From Coralliovum pocilloporae (GTDB taxonomy: Bacteria; Pseudomonadota; Alphaproteobacteria; Rhizobiales; Cohaesibacteraceae), in contig NZ_CP132542.1 in assembly GCF_030845175.1 (NCBI RefSeq), forward strand, positions 434,001-498,000: a stretch of DNA of 64,000 nucleotides, written 5' to 3'. Positions 15,906 to 23,800 of the stretch are shown piece by piece. The first letter of the stretch is position 1; every line of letters begins with the position of its first letter. Under the pieces are notes generated by a model. The model was given only the letters and a program-made list of their open reading frames with translations. It did not search any database and was not told the origin of the DNA. A program made the position numbers and the translations under genes.

Positions 15906-16307
15906 ATCTCCAATATGATTCAGAATTCGCGAGCAACTTTGCAGTTTTCCAGAGCAAAACGTTAACGCGGATTTACGGGTATTAAGAAAGGATTCAGACT
16001 CCTTTCTCAATTTGCAACCAATTCTAACAATCTATGCTAGGATTTTGGTGTTGATCCGGCTGCCTGACTTTGCCCGGCTTATTTATCCGGATGAACAACC
16101 CATGCTCTGGACCTGCCAGAGACACAAACACCCCCAATGACACCCGTTTTATTGAAACGGTAACTGGAGGAGAGGGAGAAATCCCCCTCCTCCAGCGATC
16201 TATTGTGCCTGCCGAACAGCACAGACCTCATCTGCCGGACTGATTCCCGCTTCATTTTCAACAGCTTCCAAAAGTGTAAACGGAGGTCTTCAAAGGGTAA
16301 CGCAGGA
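15906..16307. other. Intergenic region with three consecutive hairpins
   Basis: No gene was found here. Three perfect or near-perfect hairpins follow each other: CCGTTT/AAACGG (16144-16160), CTGGAGGAG/CTCCTCCAG (16164-16195, with three further inner pairs) and TGTGC/GCACA (16204-16223). None is followed by a T-run, so they are not simple terminators. A small RNA or a long structured flagellin leader is possible. Confidence 0.4.
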
Positions 16308-16329
16308 TTAACCTAAACACCCGTTAACC
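16308..16329 (+). promoter_or_regulatory. Paired TTAACC sites upstream of flagellin 1
   Basis: TTAACC at 16308-16313 and GTTAACC at 16323-16329 are 16 bases apart. Similar pairs lie upstream of flagellins 2 and 3. TTAACC resembles a CtrA half-site; the regulator is not identified. Between here and the start codon are two small hairpins, CCATCC/GGATGG (16378-16394) and ACCTT/AAGGT (16409-16423), the second containing the ribosome-binding site. Confidence 0.35.
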
Positions 16330-16432
16330 ATATAACTTTACTGAATGATTCCAGTCACCTGCCAGTTTTGACCCACGCCATCCAGGACGGATGGTTGGGG
16401 ATGTTTGAACCTTAGGAAAAGGTATTAAGACA

Positions 16433-17944
16433 ATGGGTGACATTACACTTACATCAGCAGTTCGCGAGAACCTTTCTTCTCTGCAGAACACAGCGGACCT
16501 GCTGAACAGAACACAGAATCGTCTCGCGACAGGCAACAAGGTGAACTCCGCTCTGGACAATCCGAGCTCCTTCTTCACCGCTTCCGGCCTCCAGAACCGT
16601 GCAAACGACCTGTCCGGCCTGCTTGATGACATTGGCCAGAGCGTTCAGACGCTGCGCGCAGCTGACGAAGGTATCAAGTCAATCACCAAGCTTGCAGAAT
16701 CTGCCAAAGCGAAAGCCAACCAGGCTCTCCAGACCAACAGCCAGGCAGAACGCCGCGGCTTTGCTCAGGAATATAATGAGCTGCTGACCCAGCTTGAAGA
16801 CATCGCGAAAGATGCAAGCTTCGGCGGCAAGAACCTGCTCGGCGGCGCTGGCAACGATCTGACGGTTATCTTCAACGAAACCAACACATCGAAACTGGAA
16901 ATCGGTGCTGTTGACTTCACCGACACAACCAACAGTGACGGCCTCAACCTTCAGGATCTCACAGAAGGTTCTTCAGGTGCTGTCTCCTTCCAGCTGGCTG
17001 GTGGTTCCGCAACAGAAACCTCTGACTTTGCAGGTCTGAAGACAGAATCGCTTGTTTCTGACTCCAGCTCTTTTGAAGTTGGCGACGTTCTTCAGCTCGA
17101 GACACTGCCTGCCGGTAGTGGTTCAACTGTCGCTAACTCCAGCATTACAATCTCTGCGGATACAACCGTTCAGGATGTTGTAGACACACTCAATGGTGTG
17201 GCTGGTGTCGAAGTAACGTTTGACGAGGCAGATGGTTCCTTGACCATTAACTCTTCGGAAAACGTAACCCTTCGGAACACAGATGGAGGTGCAGCAACGC
17301 CCTCACCGACTGATCTTCTGACAGTATCCGCATCCAATTTTAGCGCTGGATCCGACCTTCTGGCCGGAAGCGGTGGCATTTCTGCAGGTGATACGCTGAC
17401 CTTCACCGATGGTAACGGCTTTGAAGTCGGCACACTGGAAGTGGATGAAACAACCACTGTTAACGATCTGACGACAGCCCTGAGTGATGGAAATGGTGTA
17501 ACAGCCAGCTTCAACTCTGGTACAGGTCAGATCACAGTGGAAAGTGATGTGGATCTGACAATCTCGTCAGATAACGCCAACTTCAATTCACAAACCGGTT
17601 TCGTAGCGGACACCAATGGCGGTGTACAGCTGAACGCAGACGACTCCGGCTTTGCCAGCGACTCTGACATTGAAGGTGCTATCGACCGCGTAAACGCCGC
17701 CCTGAACACACTTCGTTCACAGGCATCTACCTTCGGCACAAACCTGTCGATCGTGGAAAACCGTCAGGGCTTCACGCGGAACCTCATCAGCACTCTGGAA
17801 TCCGGTGCAGGCAAACTGACACTTGCCGATACGAACGTGGAAGGTGCCAACCTGCTGGCTCTGCAGACACGACAGCAGCTGTCCTCTTCAGCTCTATCCC
17901 TGGCAGCGCAGGCAGACCGGAACGTTCTCAGCCTCATCCGATAA
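16433..17944 (+). CDS. Flagellin 1 (divergent copy)
   Basis: This is a filament subunit of 503 residues. The N-terminal D0/D1 helices (LTSAVRENLSSLQNTADLLN, TGNKVNSALDNPSSFFTA) and C-terminal D1/D0 helices (TLADTNVEGANLLALQTRQQ, ending NVLSLIR) are strongly conserved with the next two flagellins. The central 300 residues are a large variable insert with two flagellin-IN-type repeats (SFEVGDVLQLETLPAG and SAGDTLTFTDGNGFEVGTLE). The leader differs from those of flagellins 2 and 3. Bases 17387-17469 are identical to 21233-21315 in flagellin 3. Confidence 0.95.
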   Translation: MGDITLTSAVRENLSSLQNTADLLNRTQNRLATGNKVNSALDNPSSFFTASGLQNRANDLSGLLDDIGQSVQTLRAADEGIKSITKLAESAKAKANQALQTNSQAERRGFAQEYNELLTQLEDIAKDASFGGKNLLGGAGNDLTVIFNETNTSKLEIGAVDFTDTTNSDGLNLQDLTEGSSGAVSFQLAGGSATETSDFAGLKTESLVSDSSSFEVGDVLQLETLPAGSGSTVANSSITISADTTVQDVVDTLNGVAGVEVTFDEADGSLTINSSENVTLRNTDGGAATPSPTDLLTVSASNFSAGSDLLAGSGGISAGDTLTFTDGNGFEVGTLEVDETTTVNDLTTALSDGNGVTASFNSGTGQITVESDVDLTISSDNANFNSQTGFVADTNGGVQLNADDSGFASDSDIEGAIDRVNAALNTLRSQASTFGTNLSIVENRQGFTRNLISTLESGAGKLTLADTNVEGANLLALQTRQQLSSSALSLAAQADRNVLSLIR

Positions 17945-17965
17945 ATGGTCAGGCAGATATTACAG

Positions 17966-17994
17966 AAAGGGCGGGATTTCCCGCCCTTTTTTTT
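17966..17994 (+). terminator. Terminator after flagellin 1
   Basis: AAAGGGCGGG and CCCGCCCTTT form a ten-base perfect stem around a short loop, followed by a continuous T-run to 17994. This is a classic Rho-independent terminator. Confidence 0.92.
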
Positions 17995-18288
17995 GTAACC
18001 ATGCCCCTCACCTCAATTGCCAGGGGTTAAAATCATAGAATTAAGATCCAACATATAAACGCAATCAAAAAAACACATCACCGATGGCAGATGATTTCGG
18101 CACACATCCAACATCATATTTACAATATTAATTAATTATCAATAAATATTAATGCTTATTATTAATTTTTATTATTGAATAAATAAAATATTTACTAAAT
18201 AAATTCCAAAAATCAAAATAAATACTGAAAAATATAGTTCAAAATAAAGAATAAGTCCGTCAATTTTATGAAACTATTCGCATTTATG
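17995..18288. other. AT-rich intergenic tract upstream of flagellin 2
   Basis: No gene is present. From about 18116 to 18265 the sequence is almost entirely A and T, with repeated AATATTAA, ATTAAT and AAATAAA runs, sharply unlike the surrounding DNA. Such a tract can act as an UP element, a curved DNA segment or a binding site for a nucleoid protein such as MucR or an H-NS-like factor. It is absent upstream of flagellins 1 and 3. Confidence 0.5.
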
Positions 18289-18310
18289 GTAACCAAGCAG
18301 TAAGGTTAAC
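18289..18310 (+). promoter_or_regulatory. Paired TAACC/TTAAC sites upstream of flagellin 2
   Basis: GTAACCA (18289-18295) and GTTAACA (18305-18311) lie at the same spacing as the pair before flagellin 3, immediately upstream of the leader hairpin. They may be CtrA-like half-sites or part of the promoter. Confidence 0.33.
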
Positions 18311-18319
18311 AGAACACAA

Positions 18320-18365
18320 TCCCCTTCAACTGCTCAGGATGAGCGGTGCGTAACCTAGAAGGGGA
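18320..18365 (+). promoter_or_regulatory. Nested leader hairpin hiding the flagellin 2 ribosome-binding site
   Basis: TCCCCTTC (18320-18327) pairs without mismatch with GAAGGGGA (18358-18365), and this right arm contains the Shine-Dalgarno sequence AAGGGG that lies ten bases before the ATG. Inside it CTGCTCA (18330-18336) pairs with TGAGCGG (18340-18346) around the loop GGA. The flagellin 3 leader has the same structure with only pairing-preserving changes. FlbT of Caulobacter binds flagellin leaders, and flbT lies 4.4 kb downstream. Confidence 0.62.
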
Positions 18366-18374
18366 ATAGTATTT

Positions 18375-19883
18375 ATGTCTGATATCACGCTCACCTCCGC
18401 GGTGCGGTCGAATCTTCTGTCCTTGCAGAACACGGCCGATCTCCTCGGACGGACCCAGAACCGGTTGGCTACGGGTAACAAGGTCAACTCGGCTCTCGAT
18501 AATCCAGGTGCGTTCTTTACCGCATCCGGCCTTCAGAATCGCGCCAGCGACCTCTCAAATCTGCTTGATGACATCGGTCAGGGCGTCCAGACAATCCGGG
18601 CGGCTGATGACGGCATCTCAGGCATTACCAAGCTGGTGGAATCCGCTAAAGCCAAGGCCAACCAGGCTCTCCAGACACAGAGCCAGGAAGAGCGCCGCGA
18701 ATTTGCCACCCAATATAACGAGCTGCTTGGTCAGATCGAAGATCTGGCGAAAGATTCCAGCTATGGCGGCAAGAACCTTCTCGGTGGGGACGGCAACGAC
18801 CTGACTGTAATCTTCAATGAAGACAACACCTCCAGCCTGACCATCAATGCTGTCGATTATACCGATACAACATTGTCCAATGGCTTGAACCTGCAGGATC
18901 TGACAGAAGGCTCCAACGGTGCCGTAACCTTCAATCTAACAGGTGGCAGCGGCACAGAGACATCTGACTTTGCAGGCCTTAAGACCGAATCCCTGCTGAC
19001 CGATTCAAGTTCTTTCGAAGTTGGTGACGTTATTGAGCTCCAGACGCTGCCTGCTGGCAGTGGATCGCAGGTCAGTGGCTCAAACATCACGGTCTCAGCG
19101 GACACCACCGTGCAGGATCTTCTGGACCAGCTCAACAGTGTTGCGGGCGTTGAAGTCACCTTTGATGAAGGCGACGGCTCCCTGACCATCAACTCCTCGG
19201 AAAACGTAACTCTGCGGAACACCGATGCAGGTGCAGCAACACCATCTCCAACGGATCTCTTGACAGTTAGTGCATCAGCCTTCAACCAGGGTACTCAGCT
19301 TCTATCTGGAAGCGGTGGTATCTCTATCGGTGACACACTGACCTTCACAGATGGAAATGGGTTTGAAATCGGCACTCTGGAAGTTGATGAGACAACCACT
19401 GTTAACGACCTTACCACAGCGCTGAACGACATTGACGGGGTTAACGCCCAGTTCAACAGTGGTACAGGTGGTGTGACCCTTGAAAGTACGGTTGATTTCT
19501 CAATCACCTCCGACAATGCCAATTTCAACTCCGGTACAGGCTTTGCCGCAGACCCAGATGGCGTTACGATTGATGCGGATGACAGTGGCTTTGCCAGCGA
19601 CTCCGACATCAATGATACCATCACACGGTTGAACTCAGCCCTGAACAACCTCAGGGCCCAGGCTGGTACCTTTGGTACGAACCTGTCCACCGTGGAAATC
19701 CGTCAGGACTTCACCAAACGGGTCATCAACAACCTCGAAACAGGTGCAGGCCTGCTGACACTGGCAGACACCAACCTCGAGGGTGCAAACCTGCTGGCCT
19801 TGCAGACACGACAGCAGCTGTCTTCATCAGCTCTGTCCCTGGCAGCCCAGGCTGACCAGTCAGTGCTGCAGCTCATCCGATAA
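18375..19883 (+). CDS. Flagellin 2
   Basis: This is a 502-residue flagellin. Its N-terminal region (LTSAVRSNLLSLQNTADLLG, TGNKVNSALDNPGAFFTASG) and C-terminal region (LTLADTNLEGANLLALQTRQ, ending SVLQLIR) are almost identical to flagellin 3. The variable centre (about 150-410) holds two flagellin-IN-type repeats that are exposed on the filament in related proteins. It has its own structured leader upstream and its own terminator, so it is a separate transcription unit. Nucleotide identity with flagellin 3 is essentially complete over the first few hundred bases, which suggests recent duplication or conversion. Confidence 0.96.
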   Translation: MSDITLTSAVRSNLLSLQNTADLLGRTQNRLATGNKVNSALDNPGAFFTASGLQNRASDLSNLLDDIGQGVQTIRAADDGISGITKLVESAKAKANQALQTQSQEERREFATQYNELLGQIEDLAKDSSYGGKNLLGGDGNDLTVIFNEDNTSSLTINAVDYTDTTLSNGLNLQDLTEGSNGAVTFNLTGGSGTETSDFAGLKTESLLTDSSSFEVGDVIELQTLPAGSGSQVSGSNITVSADTTVQDLLDQLNSVAGVEVTFDEGDGSLTINSSENVTLRNTDAGAATPSPTDLLTVSASAFNQGTQLLSGSGGISIGDTLTFTDGNGFEIGTLEVDETTTVNDLTTALNDIDGVNAQFNSGTGGVTLESTVDFSITSDNANFNSGTGFAADPDGVTIDADDSGFASDSDINDTITRLNSALNNLRAQAGTFGTNLSTVEIRQDFTKRVINNLETGAGLLTLADTNLEGANLLALQTRQQLSSSALSLAAQADQSVLQLIR

Positions 19884-19904
19884 GTTCGGACAAACAAAAT
19901 ATCG

Positions 19905-19931
19905 AAGGGCGGGTTTTTCCCGCCCTTTTTT
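19905..19931 (+). terminator. Terminator after flagellin 2
   Basis: AAGGGCGGG (19905-19913) pairs with CCCGCCCTT (19919-19927) around a T5 loop and is followed by TTTT. Confidence 0.92.
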
Positions 19932-20192
19932 GTTGTCTGTTTTTGCACGCGTCCGTAACGTTTATTCATGTGTCAGGCAAGCGTTCACGCAGAAGAACCG
20001 CCCAGGATCACGGCTCACGAATCGCACTTCATCCGGCAGCTATTCCCTCATCCGACAAGGCAGAAAAATCGGGAAACGTATCGATTTTAGGAAGTTCCAA
20101 CACGTCAAGTGCCCTCCCCTTCGGTCCATCAAGAAAGCCACGTTTCGTTGTTTGAAAGTTTTTCTTAATATACCCGCCCATTCAGCCATTTT
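19932..20192. other. Intergenic region between flagellins 2 and 3
   Basis: No gene, strong hairpin or recognisable promoter consensus is seen here. It is not AT-rich like the equivalent region before flagellin 2. Confidence 0.5.
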
Positions 20193-20216
20193 GTTAACCA
20201 TTTGGTAGGGTTAACA
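20193..20216 (+). promoter_or_regulatory. Paired GTTAACC/GTTAACA sites upstream of flagellin 3
   Basis: GTTAACC (20193-20199) and GTTAACA (20210-20216) are 17 bases apart and sit just upstream of the leader hairpin, as before flagellin 2. They resemble CtrA half-sites. Confidence 0.35.
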
Positions 20217-20224
20217 AACCATTA

Positions 20225-20270
20225 TCCTCTTTAACTGCTCAGAATGAGCGGCAATGGACCTAGAAGGGGA
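20225..20270 (+). promoter_or_regulatory. Nested leader hairpin hiding the flagellin 3 ribosome-binding site
   Basis: TCCTCTTT (20225-20232) pairs with GAAGGGGA (20263-20270). Compared with flagellin 2 the left arm carries two C-to-T changes, and both keep pairing as G-U wobbles while the right arm with the Shine-Dalgarno site is unchanged. The inner stem CTGCTCA/TGAGCGG (20235-20251) is conserved with loop GAA instead of GGA. The ATG follows nine bases after the stem. Confidence 0.62.
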
Positions 20271-20278
20271 AAGTTTTA

Positions 20279-21787
20279 ATGTCTGATATCTCGCTTACCT
20301 CCGCGGTGCGGTCGAATCTTCTGTCCTTGCAGAACACGGCCGATCTCCTCGGACGGACCCAGAACCGGTTGGCTACGGGTAACAAGGTCAACTCGGCTCT
20401 CGATAATCCAGGTGCGTTCTTTACCGCATCCGGTCTTCAGGATCGCGCCAGCGACCTCTCAAATCTGCTTGATGATATCGGCCAGGGCGTCCAGACAATC
20501 CGGGCGGCTGATGACGGCATCTCAGGCATTACCAAGCTGGTGGAATCCGCTAAAGCCAAGGCCAACCAGGCTCTCCAGACACAGAGCCAGGAAGAGCGCC
20601 GCGAATTTGCCAATCAATATAACGAGCTGCTTGGTCAGATCGAAGATCTGGCACGGGATGCAAGTTATGGCGGTAAGAACCTTCTCGGTGGGGACGGCAA
20701 CGACCTGACCGTGATCTTCAATGAAGACAACACCTCAAGCCTGACTATTGATGCTGTTGATTACACCGATACAACATTGTCCGATGGTTTGAACCTGCAG
20801 AATCTGGATCGCGGTGCCAATGGTGCCGTAACGTTCAATCTAACAGGTGGTAGCGGCACAGAGACATCTGACTTTGCAGGCCTTAAGACCGAATCCCTGC
20901 TGACCGATTCAAGTTCTTTCGAAGTTGGTGACGTTATTGAGCTCCAGACGCTGCCTGCTGGCAGTGGGTCACAGGTCAGTGGCTCAGATATCACTGTCTC
21001 AGCAGACACCACCGTGCAGGATCTTCTGGACCAGCTCAACAGTGTTGCGGGCGTTGAAGCCACCTTTGATGAAGGCGACGGTTCACTGACCATCAACTCC
21101 TCGGAAAACGTAACTCTGCGGAACACGGATGCAGGTGCTGCAACACCATCTCCAACGGATCTCTTGACAGTTACTGCATCAGCCTTCAACCAGGGCACTC
21201 AGCTTCTGTCAGAAAGTGGCGGTATCTCTGTCGGTGATACGCTGACCTTCACCGATGGTAACGGCTTTGAAGTCGGCACACTGGAAGTGGATGAAACAAC
21301 CACTGTTAACGATCTCACCACTGCACTGAATGATCTTGACGGGGTTAACGCCCAGTTCAACAGTGGTACGGGTGGTGTGACCCTTGAAAGTACGGTTGAT
21401 TTCTCAATCACCTCCGACAATATCAACTTCAATTCCGGCGCAGGCTTTGCTGTGGACAGCGATGGTGTGAACATTGATGCGGATGACAGTGGCTTTGCCA
21501 GCGACAATGACATTAATGATACCATCACCAGGCTGAATGCGGCTCTGAACAACCTCAGAGCCCAGGCTGGCACCTTTGGTACGAACCTGTCCACCGTGGA
21601 AATCCGTCAGGACTTCACCAAACGGGTCATCAACAACCTCGAAACAGGTGCAGGCCTGCTGACACTGGCAGACACCAACCTCGAGGGTGCAAACCTGCTG
21701 GCCTTGCAGACACGACAGCAGCTGTCTTCATCAGCTCTGTCCCTGGCGGCTCAGGCCGACCAGTCAGTACTGCAGCTCATCCAGTAA
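20279..21787 (+). CDS. Flagellin 3
   Basis: This is a 502-residue flagellin, the closest paralogue of flagellin 2 in both conserved ends (NPGAFFTASG, TLADTNLEGANLLALQTRQQ, ending SVLQLIQ) and most of the central insert. Bases 21233-21315, coding for the second flagellin-IN repeat (GDTLTFTDGNGFEVGTLEVD), are identical to flagellin 1 and differ at many positions from flagellin 2, although sequence on both sides follows flagellin 2. This indicates a short gene-conversion tract. It has its own leader hairpin and terminator. Confidence 0.96.
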   Translation: MSDISLTSAVRSNLLSLQNTADLLGRTQNRLATGNKVNSALDNPGAFFTASGLQDRASDLSNLLDDIGQGVQTIRAADDGISGITKLVESAKAKANQALQTQSQEERREFANQYNELLGQIEDLARDASYGGKNLLGGDGNDLTVIFNEDNTSSLTIDAVDYTDTTLSDGLNLQNLDRGANGAVTFNLTGGSGTETSDFAGLKTESLLTDSSSFEVGDVIELQTLPAGSGSQVSGSDITVSADTTVQDLLDQLNSVAGVEATFDEGDGSLTINSSENVTLRNTDAGAATPSPTDLLTVTASAFNQGTQLLSESGGISVGDTLTFTDGNGFEVGTLEVDETTTVNDLTTALNDLDGVNAQFNSGTGGVTLESTVDFSITSDNINFNSGAGFAVDSDGVNIDADDSGFASDNDINDTITRLNAALNNLRAQAGTFGTNLSTVEIRQDFTKRVINNLETGAGLLTLADTNLEGANLLALQTRQQLSSSALSLAAQADQSVLQLIQ

Positions 21788-21809
21788 GGTTGCGCGGAAC
21801 ACGATACAG

Positions 21810-21836
21810 AAGGGCGGGACATTCCCGCCCTTTTTT
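21810..21836 (+). terminator. Terminator after flagellin 3
   Basis: AAGGGCGGG (21810-21818) pairs with CCCGCCCTT (21824-21832), loop ACATT, followed by T-run to 21836. The stem is the same as those after flagellins 1 and 2. Confidence 0.92.
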
Positions 21837-21938
21837 GCTACAATTTGATTAAGAGTTTAAGGTTTCTCAGGATAAAGTTTTTAAGTTCATTGAGTAGGGT
21901 AGTGAGTCAGTTTCGACAATCGCACCAAGCAATGAGCC

Positions 21939-22646
21939 ATGGCAGACGGATCGATCACAAATCGTACAGCGCCAATTCAATCGGGTTTCGGCCAAACCGA
22001 ACCCGGTGCTCTACCGTTGAAAAAACGCAAATCCAATGATCATCAGGACGACGATACCCCTGACGAGCACAAAGATCAGTATGACAAATCAGCTTTTGTC
22101 TTCGCATTTCTGAATGCAGCAATGGACAATCTGTCCGGGTCTTATGTGGAAACAGATCGCGAGCGTCAGCCTTTCGTTGATCTGAAAGCAATACTTACTG
22201 ATCTGGAAAAATCGCTTACCTTTTTTGCAAGGCGTGCACCAAAAGATCTGCTTCCATCTCTGGAAGCCGTTGAGAAATACAGTTCTGCAAAGATGACCGC
22301 CGATCATCATATCCAGGCTTTTCCGGAACTGTCAGAAAACCCCGCCTTTCTTGAGACCTATAAGACCGTTCCCCCTCGCCTTTTGCAGTTTGATCTGCAA
22401 GAGCTTGGCTCATTACTGACCAGCATAGACAAGCTGAAGAAAATCCTGTCAGCAGAAGTAAAGAGTCATTCAAACGGGATCGATCCGCTGTCCAAACTTG
22501 AACAGCTTTTGCCAGGTGACACTCATATCGCATCAGCAGGAGATGACACCGCTGAACGGTGTAGTCACGACCTGATTGACGATCTCAAACGGGCGCGTAC
22601 GAGCATCAGTTCGACGACAATGATGCACCTGCTCAAACAGCTGTAA
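21939..22646 (+). CDS. Hypothetical protein between the flagellins and flbT
   Basis: The 235-residue product is not one I recognise. It has a polar N-terminus with a basic patch (LKKRKSNDHQDDD), no signal peptide and no membrane segment. The rest is predicted to be mainly helical (for example FVFAFLNAAMDNLSG, PFVDLKAILTDLEKSLTFFA and LQFDLQELGSLLTSIDKLKK), ending in DDLKRARTSISSTTMMHLLK. It reads in the same direction as the flagellins and flbT-flaF, between the flagellin 3 terminator and flbT, so a role in flagellin expression or export is a fair guess from position alone. Confidence 0.72.
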   Translation: MADGSITNRTAPIQSGFGQTEPGALPLKKRKSNDHQDDDTPDEHKDQYDKSAFVFAFLNAAMDNLSGSYVETDRERQPFVDLKAILTDLEKSLTFFARRAPKDLLPSLEAVEKYSSAKMTADHHIQAFPELSENPAFLETYKTVPPRLLQFDLQELGSLLTSIDKLKKILSAEVKSHSNGIDPLSKLEQLLPGDTHIASAGDDTAERCSHDLIDDLKRARTSISSTTMMHLLKQL

Positions 22647-22707
22647 AAACATAGAAAAACAGCCGTTTATCGCCATTTTTACCGTGCTTTTTCCCACCGA
22701 TTCGCTA

Positions 22708-22721
22708 CACTGAAAACAGTG
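22708..22721. promoter_or_regulatory. Inverted repeat upstream of flbT
   Basis: CACTGAAAACAGTG is a perfect five-base inverted repeat with a four-base spacer, 26 bases before the flbT start. It is flanked by two direct copies of GATTCGC. It could be a repressor operator or a small leader hairpin; no family is assigned. Confidence 0.3.
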
Positions 22722-22746
22722 ATTCGCAGCTGGAGATTCAGCACAT

Positions 22747-23163
22747 ATGGCACTCAAGGTCGAACTGAAACCTGGTGAAAAAATCATTGTCGGAGACAGC
22801 GTTCTCACCAATGGCGACCAACGAACTCGCCTGTTTGTCGAGGGTCAGGCCCCAATTCTGAGGGAAAAAGATATTCTGACCCCGGGAACAGCCAACACAC
22901 CAGCAAAACGGATCTATCTTGCAATTCAGATGATGTATCTCGATGGAGACCTCGAGCGACATCATGATGATTACTTTACACTGGTGAATGATTTTATTCA
23001 GGCTGCGCCAAGTGCGATGCCGTATATTCAAAAGATTAACAACACAATCTTAACCGGAACGTTTTATAAAGCATTGAAGGATGCACGCGAGCTTATCGCC
23101 TATGAAGAGGACTTGATTCAGAATGCACTATCAGTCAGTAGCGGCGTATCAGACAGCAAGTAA
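22747..23163 (+). CDS. flbT: Flagellin mRNA regulator FlbT
   Basis: FlbT is a post-transcriptional regulator that associates with the 5' leader of flagellin mRNA in Caulobacter and, in several alphaproteobacteria, tunes flagellin synthesis to filament assembly. The 138-residue protein shows the family start LKVELKPGEKIIVGDSVLTN and the body TPAKRIYLAIQMMYLDGD with YEEDLIQNAL near the end. It is followed by flaF with a 41-base overlap. The SD-hiding hairpins before flagellins 2 and 3 are its most likely targets here, which is inference. Confidence 0.93.
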   Translation: MALKVELKPGEKIIVGDSVLTNGDQRTRLFVEGQAPILREKDILTPGTANTPAKRIYLAIQMMYLDGDLERHHDDYFTLVNDFIQAAPSAMPYIQKINNTILTGTFYKALKDARELIAYEEDLIQNALSVSSGVSDSK

Positions 23164-23491
23164 AGCCGCATCCGATCCGCGTGAACTTGAAAGCGGCCTG
23201 CTGTTGAAAGCGGCTGCCCGGTTGAACGCGATCCGCGATAAATGGGATGAAATGCAGGGCGATCTGGATGAAGCACTTGTCTTCAACCGCAAGCTTTGGA
23301 CAATCTTTGTGACGTCAGTGACGCAGCAGGATAACCCACTGCCCAGCGAGATAAAGCAGAACATCGCCAATCTCGGCATCTTCATTTTCAATCAGACAAT
23401 CCAGATCCAGGCGCAGCCTGCACCGGAAAAGCTGGATGTTCTGGTGTCGATCAACAAAGACATTGCCATGGGCCTGCGCGGCCAGAGTTGA
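23123..23491 (+). CDS. flaF: Flagellin synthesis regulator FlaF
   Basis: FlaF is required for flagellin synthesis or secretion and acts against FlbT. The 122-residue protein has the typical YQTASKAASDPRELESGLLL start and FNRKLWTIFVTSVTQQDNPL, followed by IKQNIANLGIFIFNQTI, all FlaF landmarks. Its ATG lies inside flbT (41-base overlap), so the two are translationally linked. A strong terminator follows 25 bases after the stop. Confidence 0.93.
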   Translation: MHYQSVAAYQTASKAASDPRELESGLLLKAAARLNAIRDKWDEMQGDLDEALVFNRKLWTIFVTSVTQQDNPLPSEIKQNIANLGIFIFNQTIQIQAQPAPEKLDVLVSINKDIAMGLRGQS

Positions 23492-23516
23492 TCGACAAAA
23501 CAGTTCTGAAATGAGG

Positions 23517-23542
23517 AAGGCCGGAATTCTCCGGCCTTTTTT
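23517..23542 (+). terminator. Terminator after flaF
   Basis: AAGGCCGG (23517-23524) pairs with CCGGCCTT (23531-23538) and is followed by a T-run. A second hairpin, GCCCCG/CGGGGC, lies at about 23558-23577. Confidence 0.88.
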
Positions 23543-23700
23543 GTGTCTGCAAAAAATGCCCCGTTCAGGTTCGGGGCACATCAAGCAATACAGTCAGGGT
23601 GGTTTTCAACGATTTTCGCAAAGCCGAACCGGAAAACACCTCCGTCCCCACCGTCGCTACGACAGGTTAAATGGAAAGGCGAAAACTATACGGCTGAATC

Positions 23701-23800
23701 CTACAGCGTGCTTCTGAAAAGTTGATAGACTTTTCAGACAAAAGCTCGCGCAGCAATAAACTCTTAAAGCACCGCTACCAATTCAAATTAAAGATTTGGG
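23701..23800 (-). repeat. Dispersed intergenic repeat, copy A
   Basis: Read on the minus strand this roughly 100-base segment aligns along its length with 45478-45585 and with 38725-38797. Shared blocks include GGTGCTTTAAGAG, CGAGCTTTT and TATCAACTTTTCAGAAGCAC. It contains the inverted repeat CTGAAAAGT/ACTTTTCAG (23713-23736). It lies between the converging flaF and flgL genes and reaches within three bases of the flgL stop. Confidence 0.7.

Follow-up and report, generated by a model that had tools for sequence, protein, structure and literature searches.

The DNA analysed here is a stretch of 64,000 nucleotides of Coralliovum pocilloporae (contig NZ_CP132542.1, positions 434,001 to 498,000), referred to as the window, from a genome that consists of one contig of 3.9 Mb. 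Pfam profile searches combined with open reading frames revealed three tandem flagellin genes in the window, followed by a frame of 235 residues, flbT and flaF (Table 1). The subject of this report is the leaders of the three flagellin genes, each of which, flagellin 1 included, contains two hairpins, A and B, with a loop of the form AGRAN (R, A or G; N, any base), located about 45 and about 20 bases before the start codon, respectively. Hairpin B is short in the window, with 3 to 5 pairs, and the Shine-Dalgarno sequence forms its 3' arm.

Table 1. Features of the flagellin locus, in positions of the window
Feature	Sequence or role	Position	Strand	Basis
Flagellin 1 hairpin A	GCCATCC-AGGAC-GGATGGT	16377..16395	+	fold prediction, loop comparison, covariance-model match
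Flagellin 1 hairpin B	ACCTT-AGGAA-AAGGT; holds Shine-Dalgarno AAGG	16409..16423	+	fold prediction, loop comparison, covariance model
Flagellin 1 gene	target	16433..17944	+	Flagellin_N and Flagellin_C above cut-off
Flagellin 2 outer stem, left arm	TCCCCTTC	18320..18327	+	pairs with 18358-18365; fold prediction
Flagellin 2 hairpin A	ACTGCTC-AGGAT-GAGCGGT; inner stem of the earlier note	18329..18347	+	fold prediction, loop comparison, covariance model
Flagellin 2 hairpin B	CCT-AGAAG-GGG; holds Shine-Dalgarno, excludes outer stem	18354..18364	+	loop comparison, covariance model
Flagellin 2 outer stem, right arm	GAAGGGGA; Shine-Dalgarno	18358..18365	+	fold prediction
Flagellin 2 gene	target	18375..19883	+	Flagellin_N and Flagellin_C profile search
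Flagellin 3 outer stem, left arm	TCCTCTTT	20225..20232	+	pairs with 20263-20270; fold prediction
Flagellin 3 hairpin A	CTGCTC-AGAAT-GAGCGG	20235..20251	+	fold prediction, loop comparison, covariance model
Flagellin 3 hairpin B	CCT-AGAAG-GGG; holds Shine-Dalgarno	20259..20269	+	loop comparison, covariance model
Flagellin 3 outer stem, right arm	GAAGGGGA	20263..20270	+	fold prediction
Flagellin 3 gene	target	20279..21787	+	Flagellin_N and Flagellin_C profile search
flbT	candidate reader of the hairpins	22747..23163	+	PF07378, E 5.4e-44
flaF	flagellin secretion chaperone gene	23123..23491	+	PF07309, E 3.8e-33

The predicted fold of the flagellin 1 leader (-34.6 kcal/mol, z -3.08) was matched by none of 200 shuffles and displays the loops AGGAC and AGGAA. 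For flagellins 2 and 3, an earlier note on this DNA had described an eight-base outer stem over the Shine-Dalgarno sequence, enclosing an inner stem with a three-base loop. The arms of the outer stem are indeed present in both leaders, and the nested structure was recovered as the minimum-energy fold, with -21.5 kcal/mol for flagellin 2 (z -3.14, 2 of 200 shuffles as good over 60 nt; z -2.36, 4 of 200 over 81 nt) and -15.3 kcal/mol for flagellin 3 (z -0.26, 70 of 200 shuffles as good over 75 nt). By itself, the flagellin 3 leader is thus no better than chance, and a 54-nt stretch of it, with the left outer arm cut, gave a different fold (z -1.01). Folding and comparison together predict the ribosome site of flagellin leaders to be covered by structure, in line with the earlier suggestion that selection seems to have acted on RNA structure in the leaders, with the ribosome site inside a helix. 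Flagellin 1, which had been set apart as having a different leader, lacks the outer stem only, its twin AGRAN hairpins being otherwise the same.

To follow the hairpins among relatives, two samples of flagellin leaders were compared. The first comprised 127 distinct leaders from 78 genomes (28 families) belonging to the window's own family and its order, Rhizobiales, after the removal of 9 duplicates from 136; the 100 order leaders fetched were hand-picked, mostly from the best of the matches listed, and one of 64 bases only (L101) was left out. A hairpin of at least five pairs with an AGRAN loop was found in 66 of the 127, dinucleotide shuffles giving a mean of 1.07 and a maximum of 4 in 30 runs, and the next commonest pentaloop start occurred in 7 leaders only. 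The string CC(Y)AGRA..GG was present within the last 32 bases in 91 of these leaders. The second sample was drawn from 80 named loci that surround flbT, 67 of which yielded 131 leaders; no flagellin start was found in the other 13, and the flagellin motif missed at least two flagellins in the named loci. In this sample, an AGRAN hairpin was present in 76 leaders (counted without a shuffle control). Relatives at the family level had seemed unrelated until loops, not stems, were compared.

The two samples overlap in part and amounted to 245 leaders when pooled with duplicates removed. Hairpin A was scored at -70 to -28 with at least four pairs and a loop of 4 to 6 bases beginning AGRA, and hairpin B at -25 to -7 with at least three pairs. 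Both hairpins were found in 115 leaders, A alone in 32, B alone in 41 and neither in 57; in shuffles, averaged over 10 runs, the corresponding numbers were 0.1 for both, 8.8 for A and 8.1 for B. Some Bosea leaders contain three AGRAN hairpins. These figures bear on the idea that the hairpins regulate nothing, and merely stabilise an abundant mRNA or arise as a by-product of purine-rich ribosome sites. AGRA resembles the core of a Shine-Dalgarno sequence, so that hairpin B could arise easily, at the shuffled rate just given. Hairpin A, however, carries the same loop and is not a ribosome site, A and B occur together in far more leaders than in shuffles, and flbT-proximal flagellin paralogs of the same loci are usually hairpin-free, as described below. 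An absence of regulation is accordingly considered very improbable, and the presence at flagellin starts of a cis-acting RNA element that is a real, conserved feature under selection is almost certain.

Among the 119 pooled hairpins A with a pentaloop, the closing pair is C-G in 112, the third loop base is G in 76 and A in 43, and the fifth is free. The base facing the first A of the loop varies (A in 57, C in 34, T in 19, G in 9), which makes an AGRAN pentaloop closed by C-G a better reading than the three-base loop of the earlier note, whose inner stem stands as hairpin A. The loop was also approached from the sequence. At least three pairs flank AGRA in 47% of its 140 occurrences at -70 to -32, as against 4.9% of 4813 occurrences of other tetramers, and in 40% of 143 at -31 to -12, as against 4.5% of 2397.

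A covariance model of the structure was trained on 19 leaders having both hairpins, the three flagellins of the window among them. In the window's own genome, the three flagellins were the only matches up to E 10, with 42.6 bits for flagellin 1 (G000:C1:450375-450435) and 42.8 and 43.7 bits for flagellins 2 and 3, all three being training rows. The scans of the named loci and of 150 genomes of the order used speed filters, with which weak matches may be lost. On both strands of 47 of the 80 named loci, 749 kb in all, the model gave 52 matches with E no higher than 1. Of these, 51 terminate at the start codon of a flagellin, and the single off-flagellin match has an E of 0.55; one locus, L274, holds one training leader. 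Because the 47 loci hold at least 91 flagellin starts, the model finds little over half of them. Among the 150 order genomes, 40 match at E ≤0.1, and all 52 matches lie at flagellin starts (19 training rows and 33 others); 49 of these end at most 6 bases from an extrapolated flagellin start, and 3 were read directly as flagellins. A scan of 240 genomes of the class gave matches in 11, the own genome included; of the 14 matches, 11 are at flagellins, 1 is at a contig end and 2 are elsewhere. Since seven genomes outside the order match at a flagellin, the element reaches past the order, thinly.

In the training alignment (19 leaders, 11 families), double changes occur in 11 of 11 pairs, a count that is circular because the rows were selected for having both hairpins. 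A sequence-only model was therefore built from the same training rows and applied to other loci; 45 named loci yielded 36 matches with E no higher than 1. In the resulting alignment, 88.1% of the cells pair (helix A 94.9%, helix B 79.6%), with slid registers pairing in 39-53%, and in 45 cells both partners have changed. None of 500 shuffles matched the pairing percentage, the number of double-change cells or the covariation score; the count of pairs showing any double change (6 of 10) was matched by 101 of 500 and the pair-type count by 24 of 500.

The outer stem fared differently. In flagellins 2 and 3, it and hairpin B are mutually exclusive because they use the same Shine-Dalgarno bases. 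An outer helix was sought in leaders having hairpin A as at least eight pairs between the last 26 bases, including the start codon, and a segment of up to 32 bases preceding hairpin A. Such a helix occurs in 26 of 140, as against 7.3% in shuffles, and outer helices of different families differ in sequence. The outer duplex energy z-scores have a mean of -0.52, with 12% below -2.5; within the window, flagellin 2 is the only outlier (-3.1), flagellins 3 and 1 having +0.4 and +0.5. The outer stem is a modest, local excess and mostly a local addition rather than a general conserved unit. As a general unit it was rejected, since the other 114 leaders have no helix of this length yet their flagellins are kept, a combination which the earlier note had itself named as evidence against its proposal. 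Of the search for a nested stem and covariation in relatives that it had recommended, the shared and covarying part proved to be the AGRAN hairpins. The note had further pointed to two differences between the left arms of flagellins 2 and 3; both are C-to-T changes facing G, and pairing is kept as G-U. As proof of selection they are weak between close paralogs, because any C-to-T change facing G keeps pairing, and the real evidence comes from the relatives.

The outer stem is also what would drive a protein-free RNA switch, in which it alternates with the two hairpins under the influence of temperature, co-transcriptional folding or ribosome competition. Its dominance in the flagellin 2 fold, where it excludes hairpin B, and the excess of outer helices with family-specific sequences are what such a switch would produce. 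The same model leaves unexplained why AGRAN is constant in both loops while the stem of hairpin A varies, and most hairpin-A leaders offer no outer helix of that length to switch with; we regard it as unlikely.

The genomes of the order were searched for candidate readers. CsrA was found in 0 of the 150 genomes, the own genome included, by a search that was positive in three control genomes, and CsrA as loop reader is ruled out for these genomes. FlbT was found in 100 of the 150 by profile search. In 51 of 61 FlbT-positive genomes, at least one fetched leader has hairpin A or B; the tally had started from 73 genomes, 63 with a hairpin, 12 of which (the window's family, all with a hairpin) lay outside the FlbT search, and G007 was left out. 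Six flagellin-positive genomes gave no FlbT match, namely G030, G077, G113 and G144, which belong to one genus, and G084 and G101. In the flbT-less genus, flaF is present in all four genomes and an AGRAN hairpin in none of the four leaders; in the two loci read, the interval from flagellin to flaF contains no frame of the size of FlbT. A CUGCUC..GAGYAG stem, with the loop AAAGG, is retained in the leaders of G030, G077 and G113.

Because the element covaries, is almost confined to flagellin starts and is missing in the flbT-less genus, we consider it a candidate FlbT site, and FlbT, by correlation across genomes, appears to be the best candidate reader. As the earlier note had observed, flbT lies nearby, after the flagellins and together with flaF. 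An FlbT-controlled translational switch, which had been proposed as the simplest reading, is supported as such. Our preferred interpretation, which we hold to be probable, is that the AGRAN twin hairpins are a translational operator read by FlbT, repressing until the hook is done; the hairpins, their covariation, their near-restriction to flagellins, the absence of CsrA and the occurrence of FlbT are all computed results. Each flagellin mRNA would open with a two-hairpin operator displaying the same AGRAN loop twice. An AGRAN-recognising protein, most likely FlbT, would bind both loops and hold the weak hairpin B shut, so that ribosomes would gain no access before hook completion. The outer stem of flagellins 2 and 3 may act as a local second lock that pairs the Shine-Dalgarno sequence with sequence upstream of hairpin A. 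We infer that the leader is transcribed in full, that FlbT is the reader and that both loops are bound simultaneously; repression as the outcome and its link to hook completion are proposed by analogy with Caulobacter, as presented in the available parts of the literature.

The loops might instead be read by FlaF, by an RNase that determines mRNA half-life or by some unknown RNA-binding protein. FlbT binding is a prediction here, two extra-order leaders from genomes with no FlbT match have an AGAA-type hairpin, and Caulobacter FlbT reportedly promotes the decay of its target (PMC4347634, in the text available), all of which leave room for such a reader. FlaF, however, is kept in the genus that has neither flbT nor the loops, and CsrA is absent from the genomes searched; on balance, a reader other than FlbT is fairly unlikely.

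Several observations weigh against an FlbT-read operator. At the level of the RNA, the folding z-score of the flagellin 3 leader is not significant, 57 of the 245 pooled leaders have neither hairpin, and the structure model matches only 10 of 239 other class genomes, 7 of these at flagellins. The pairs of hairpin B, 3 to 5 in the window, hardly covary in the alignment of the sequence-only model; with a single double-change cell there, support for this hairpin comes from its position and loop. At the level of the reader, 10 of the 61 FlbT-positive genomes have no hairpin in the fetched leaders, and at least one of these ten genomes (G105) has model matches at other flagellins. The flbT-less genus represents a single loss event. 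Among the FlbT-negative genomes, G101 is matched by the model (E 1.3e-4), and a looser test finds a B-like hairpin in G084; the flbT status of both is uncertain because their flagellins lie at contig breaks (a 4669-base contig and the final 0.6 kb of a contig) and because they lack FlaF as well. Outside the order, an AGAA-type hairpin occurs in 2 of 5 leaders of genomes with no FlbT match (L342 and L344, from G193 and G341); G323, a genus-mate of G193, has FlbT. Finally, the sign of control may differ, as FlbT has been proposed as an activator in Brucella, according to the portions of the literature at hand.

The protein itself was compared with known RNA-binding proteins. The AlphaFold model of FlbT (pLDDT 92.9) consists of five short strands followed by helices, and the strand order resembles that of CsrA. 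Profile comparison of FlbT with CsrA by hhalign gave probabilities of 0.9% and 3.3%, with nothing significant, and a shuffle test with 21 sequences gave a mean z of 0.93 and a best single value of 2.84. Foldseek with the FlbT model returned no E below 1, and no CsrA was among the matches listed. A fold search with the N-terminal domain ranked the RNA-binding protein TRAP first (3aqd, Z 3.4, 40 residues aligned at rmsd 1.8), which is no evidence because the rows within 1 of its Z are unrelated proteins. A Pfam Sm_like hint in 8 of 21 FlbT N-terminal pieces (best E 0.0066) was not significant. A second, divergent type of FlbT lies in 20 stretches of 20 kb, in which neither a flagellin (by motif) nor a model match up to E 5 was found; Rfam at gathering, run on 7 of the 20, gave zero matches. 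In G038, a second, divergent FlbT-like frame (L360:1807-2169, under the Pfam cut-off) stands head to head with an element-bearing flagellin.

The proposed operator invites comparison with known systems. FlbT binds flagellin leaders in Caulobacter, according to the accessible text of PMC4347634 and PMC3930126. In Caulobacter crescentus, the FlbT-controlled leaders (Anderson and Gober 2000, as related in later papers) share with the window the setting of a flagellin 5' leader and of flbT together with flaF, and their translation is said to be gated by the hook; unlike the AGRAN pair, no consensus element is given for them in the available parts of those later papers. A 2015 review, in the sections accessible, lists no binding motif for FlbT and calls the mechanism unresolved. 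We found no published description of the AGRAN element in a search that left most subscription papers outside, and the Caulobacter paper of 2000 may describe related hairpins. For the action of FlbT on flagellin leaders reported in 2000, the AGRAN element provides a concrete, testable candidate site. For the class, 40 leaders were chosen and reduced to 31 by removing 2 with no start, 2 with an internal start (L338, L339) and 5 from genomes with no FlbT match. In these 31 extra-order leaders of FlbT-positive genomes, at four or more pairs, AGAA pentaloops (7) and AAAA pentaloops (5) share the lead. C-G-closed AAAAY loops recur in the extra-order flagellin leaders L305, L309, L311 and L314, perhaps as a local version of the loop.

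The flg-Rhizobiales RNA, RF01736, lies upstream of flagellar genes. No Rfam family matches the window leaders, with 0 matches at gathering in the window; RF01736 does not appear in a scan of 16000-23800 up to E 10, and no match to it was found at E 5 in the flagellin loci of nine relatives. In 190 class genomes, few of them of this order, it gave two matches, both below the cut-off. Membership in RF01736 was rejected on the window results at gathering and up to E 10. Like the element described here, RF01736 (Weinberg 2010) is a structured Rhizobiales cis-element, with three stem-loops of its own as far as the text of PMC3765529 at hand describes it; the window has two AGRAN hairpins, plus an outer stem in two of three leaders, with other sequence and loops (compared by eye, on the two weak matches). 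With the CsrA-FliW control of flagellin in Bacillus and Campylobacter, the AGRAN hairpins share a GGA-like loop motif and one site at the ribosome site, and an analogy between CsrA-FliW and FlbT-FlaF has already been suggested in print (PMC4894983, in the part available). Unlike that system, CsrA is absent from the order genomes searched here, and the loops differ from CsrA targets because the third base is A in 43 of the 119 pentaloop hairpins A, which the GGA motif of CsrA disallows.

Paralogs were compared in 36 named loci with at least two flagellins found upstream of flbT. An AGRAN hairpin is present in 9 of the 36 flbT-proximal paralogs versus 60 of 64 other paralogs. In 7 of the 36 loci, a nearer flagellin may have been missed because the gene counted as proximal lies at least 1 kb from flbT; in the remaining 29, the proximal paralog has the hairpin in 4. 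In Stappiaceae, 0 of 21 proximal paralogs and 44 of 45 others have a hairpin of at least four pairs, a looser test revealing a B hairpin in 1 of the 21 (L205). A hairpin-free proximal paralog recurs in Bosea, Microvirga, Methylobrevis and one Devosia; in Pelagibacterium, the pattern is reversed (L225, L248). In Caulobacter, FljJ is a regulatory flagellin that binds FlbT, co-represses the other flagellins and leaves the cell by secretion (Ardissone 2020, via the available text of PMC7591256). Like FljJ, the flbT-proximal paralog of the relatives is usually hairpin-free, as an exempt co-repressor would need to be, and by this analogy it is a candidate counterpart of FljJ. Unlike this pattern, every flagellin found in the window's genome has the hairpins, and none of the three is an element-free paralog of the FljJ type. 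The comparison suggests a rule, readable from DNA, for spotting an exempt and possibly regulatory flagellin paralog in genomes.

A wider proposal can be put forward tentatively, as possible rather than probable: the AGRAN twin hairpins may be the RNA code of FlbT in much of Alphaproteobacteria, replacing CsrA-FliW, and in genomes with more than one flagellin a code-free paralog, usually the one beside flbT, would be made first, co-repress, and report hook completion once secreted, with the outer stem as a local second lock.

The remaining observations concern the surroundings of the flagellin genes. The 235-residue frame between flagellin 3 and flbT (21939-22646) has no Pfam match. Many relatives have a gap of about 45-120 bases between the end of the nearest flagellin and flbT, so that the frame seems to have been inserted into the locus. 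The segment 18020-18260, which lies between the flagellin 1 gene and the leader of flagellin 2, is AT-rich (77% A+T versus 46% window-wide). Each flagellin is followed by a terminator-like hairpin, GGGCGGG..CCCGCCC with a T run (17969-17994, 19907-19933 and 21812-21838; the loops differ), and most of the chance Rfam rows of the window scan (16000-23800, E up to 10) fall on these hairpins. Upstream of 18375 and 20279, the starts of flagellins 2 and 3, degenerate forms of TTAA-N7-TTAR were found, which we take to be the form of CtrA sites. TTAA-N7-TTAR is present in 98 of 244 flagellin upstream regions, as against 1.95 in mononucleotide shuffles, and pairs of TTAA and TTAR at spacings of 5, 6, 8 and 9 occur in 0, 7, 21 and 11 regions, respectively. 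In related loci (e.g., L080 and L088), its usual start is at -84 to -99 from the start codon.

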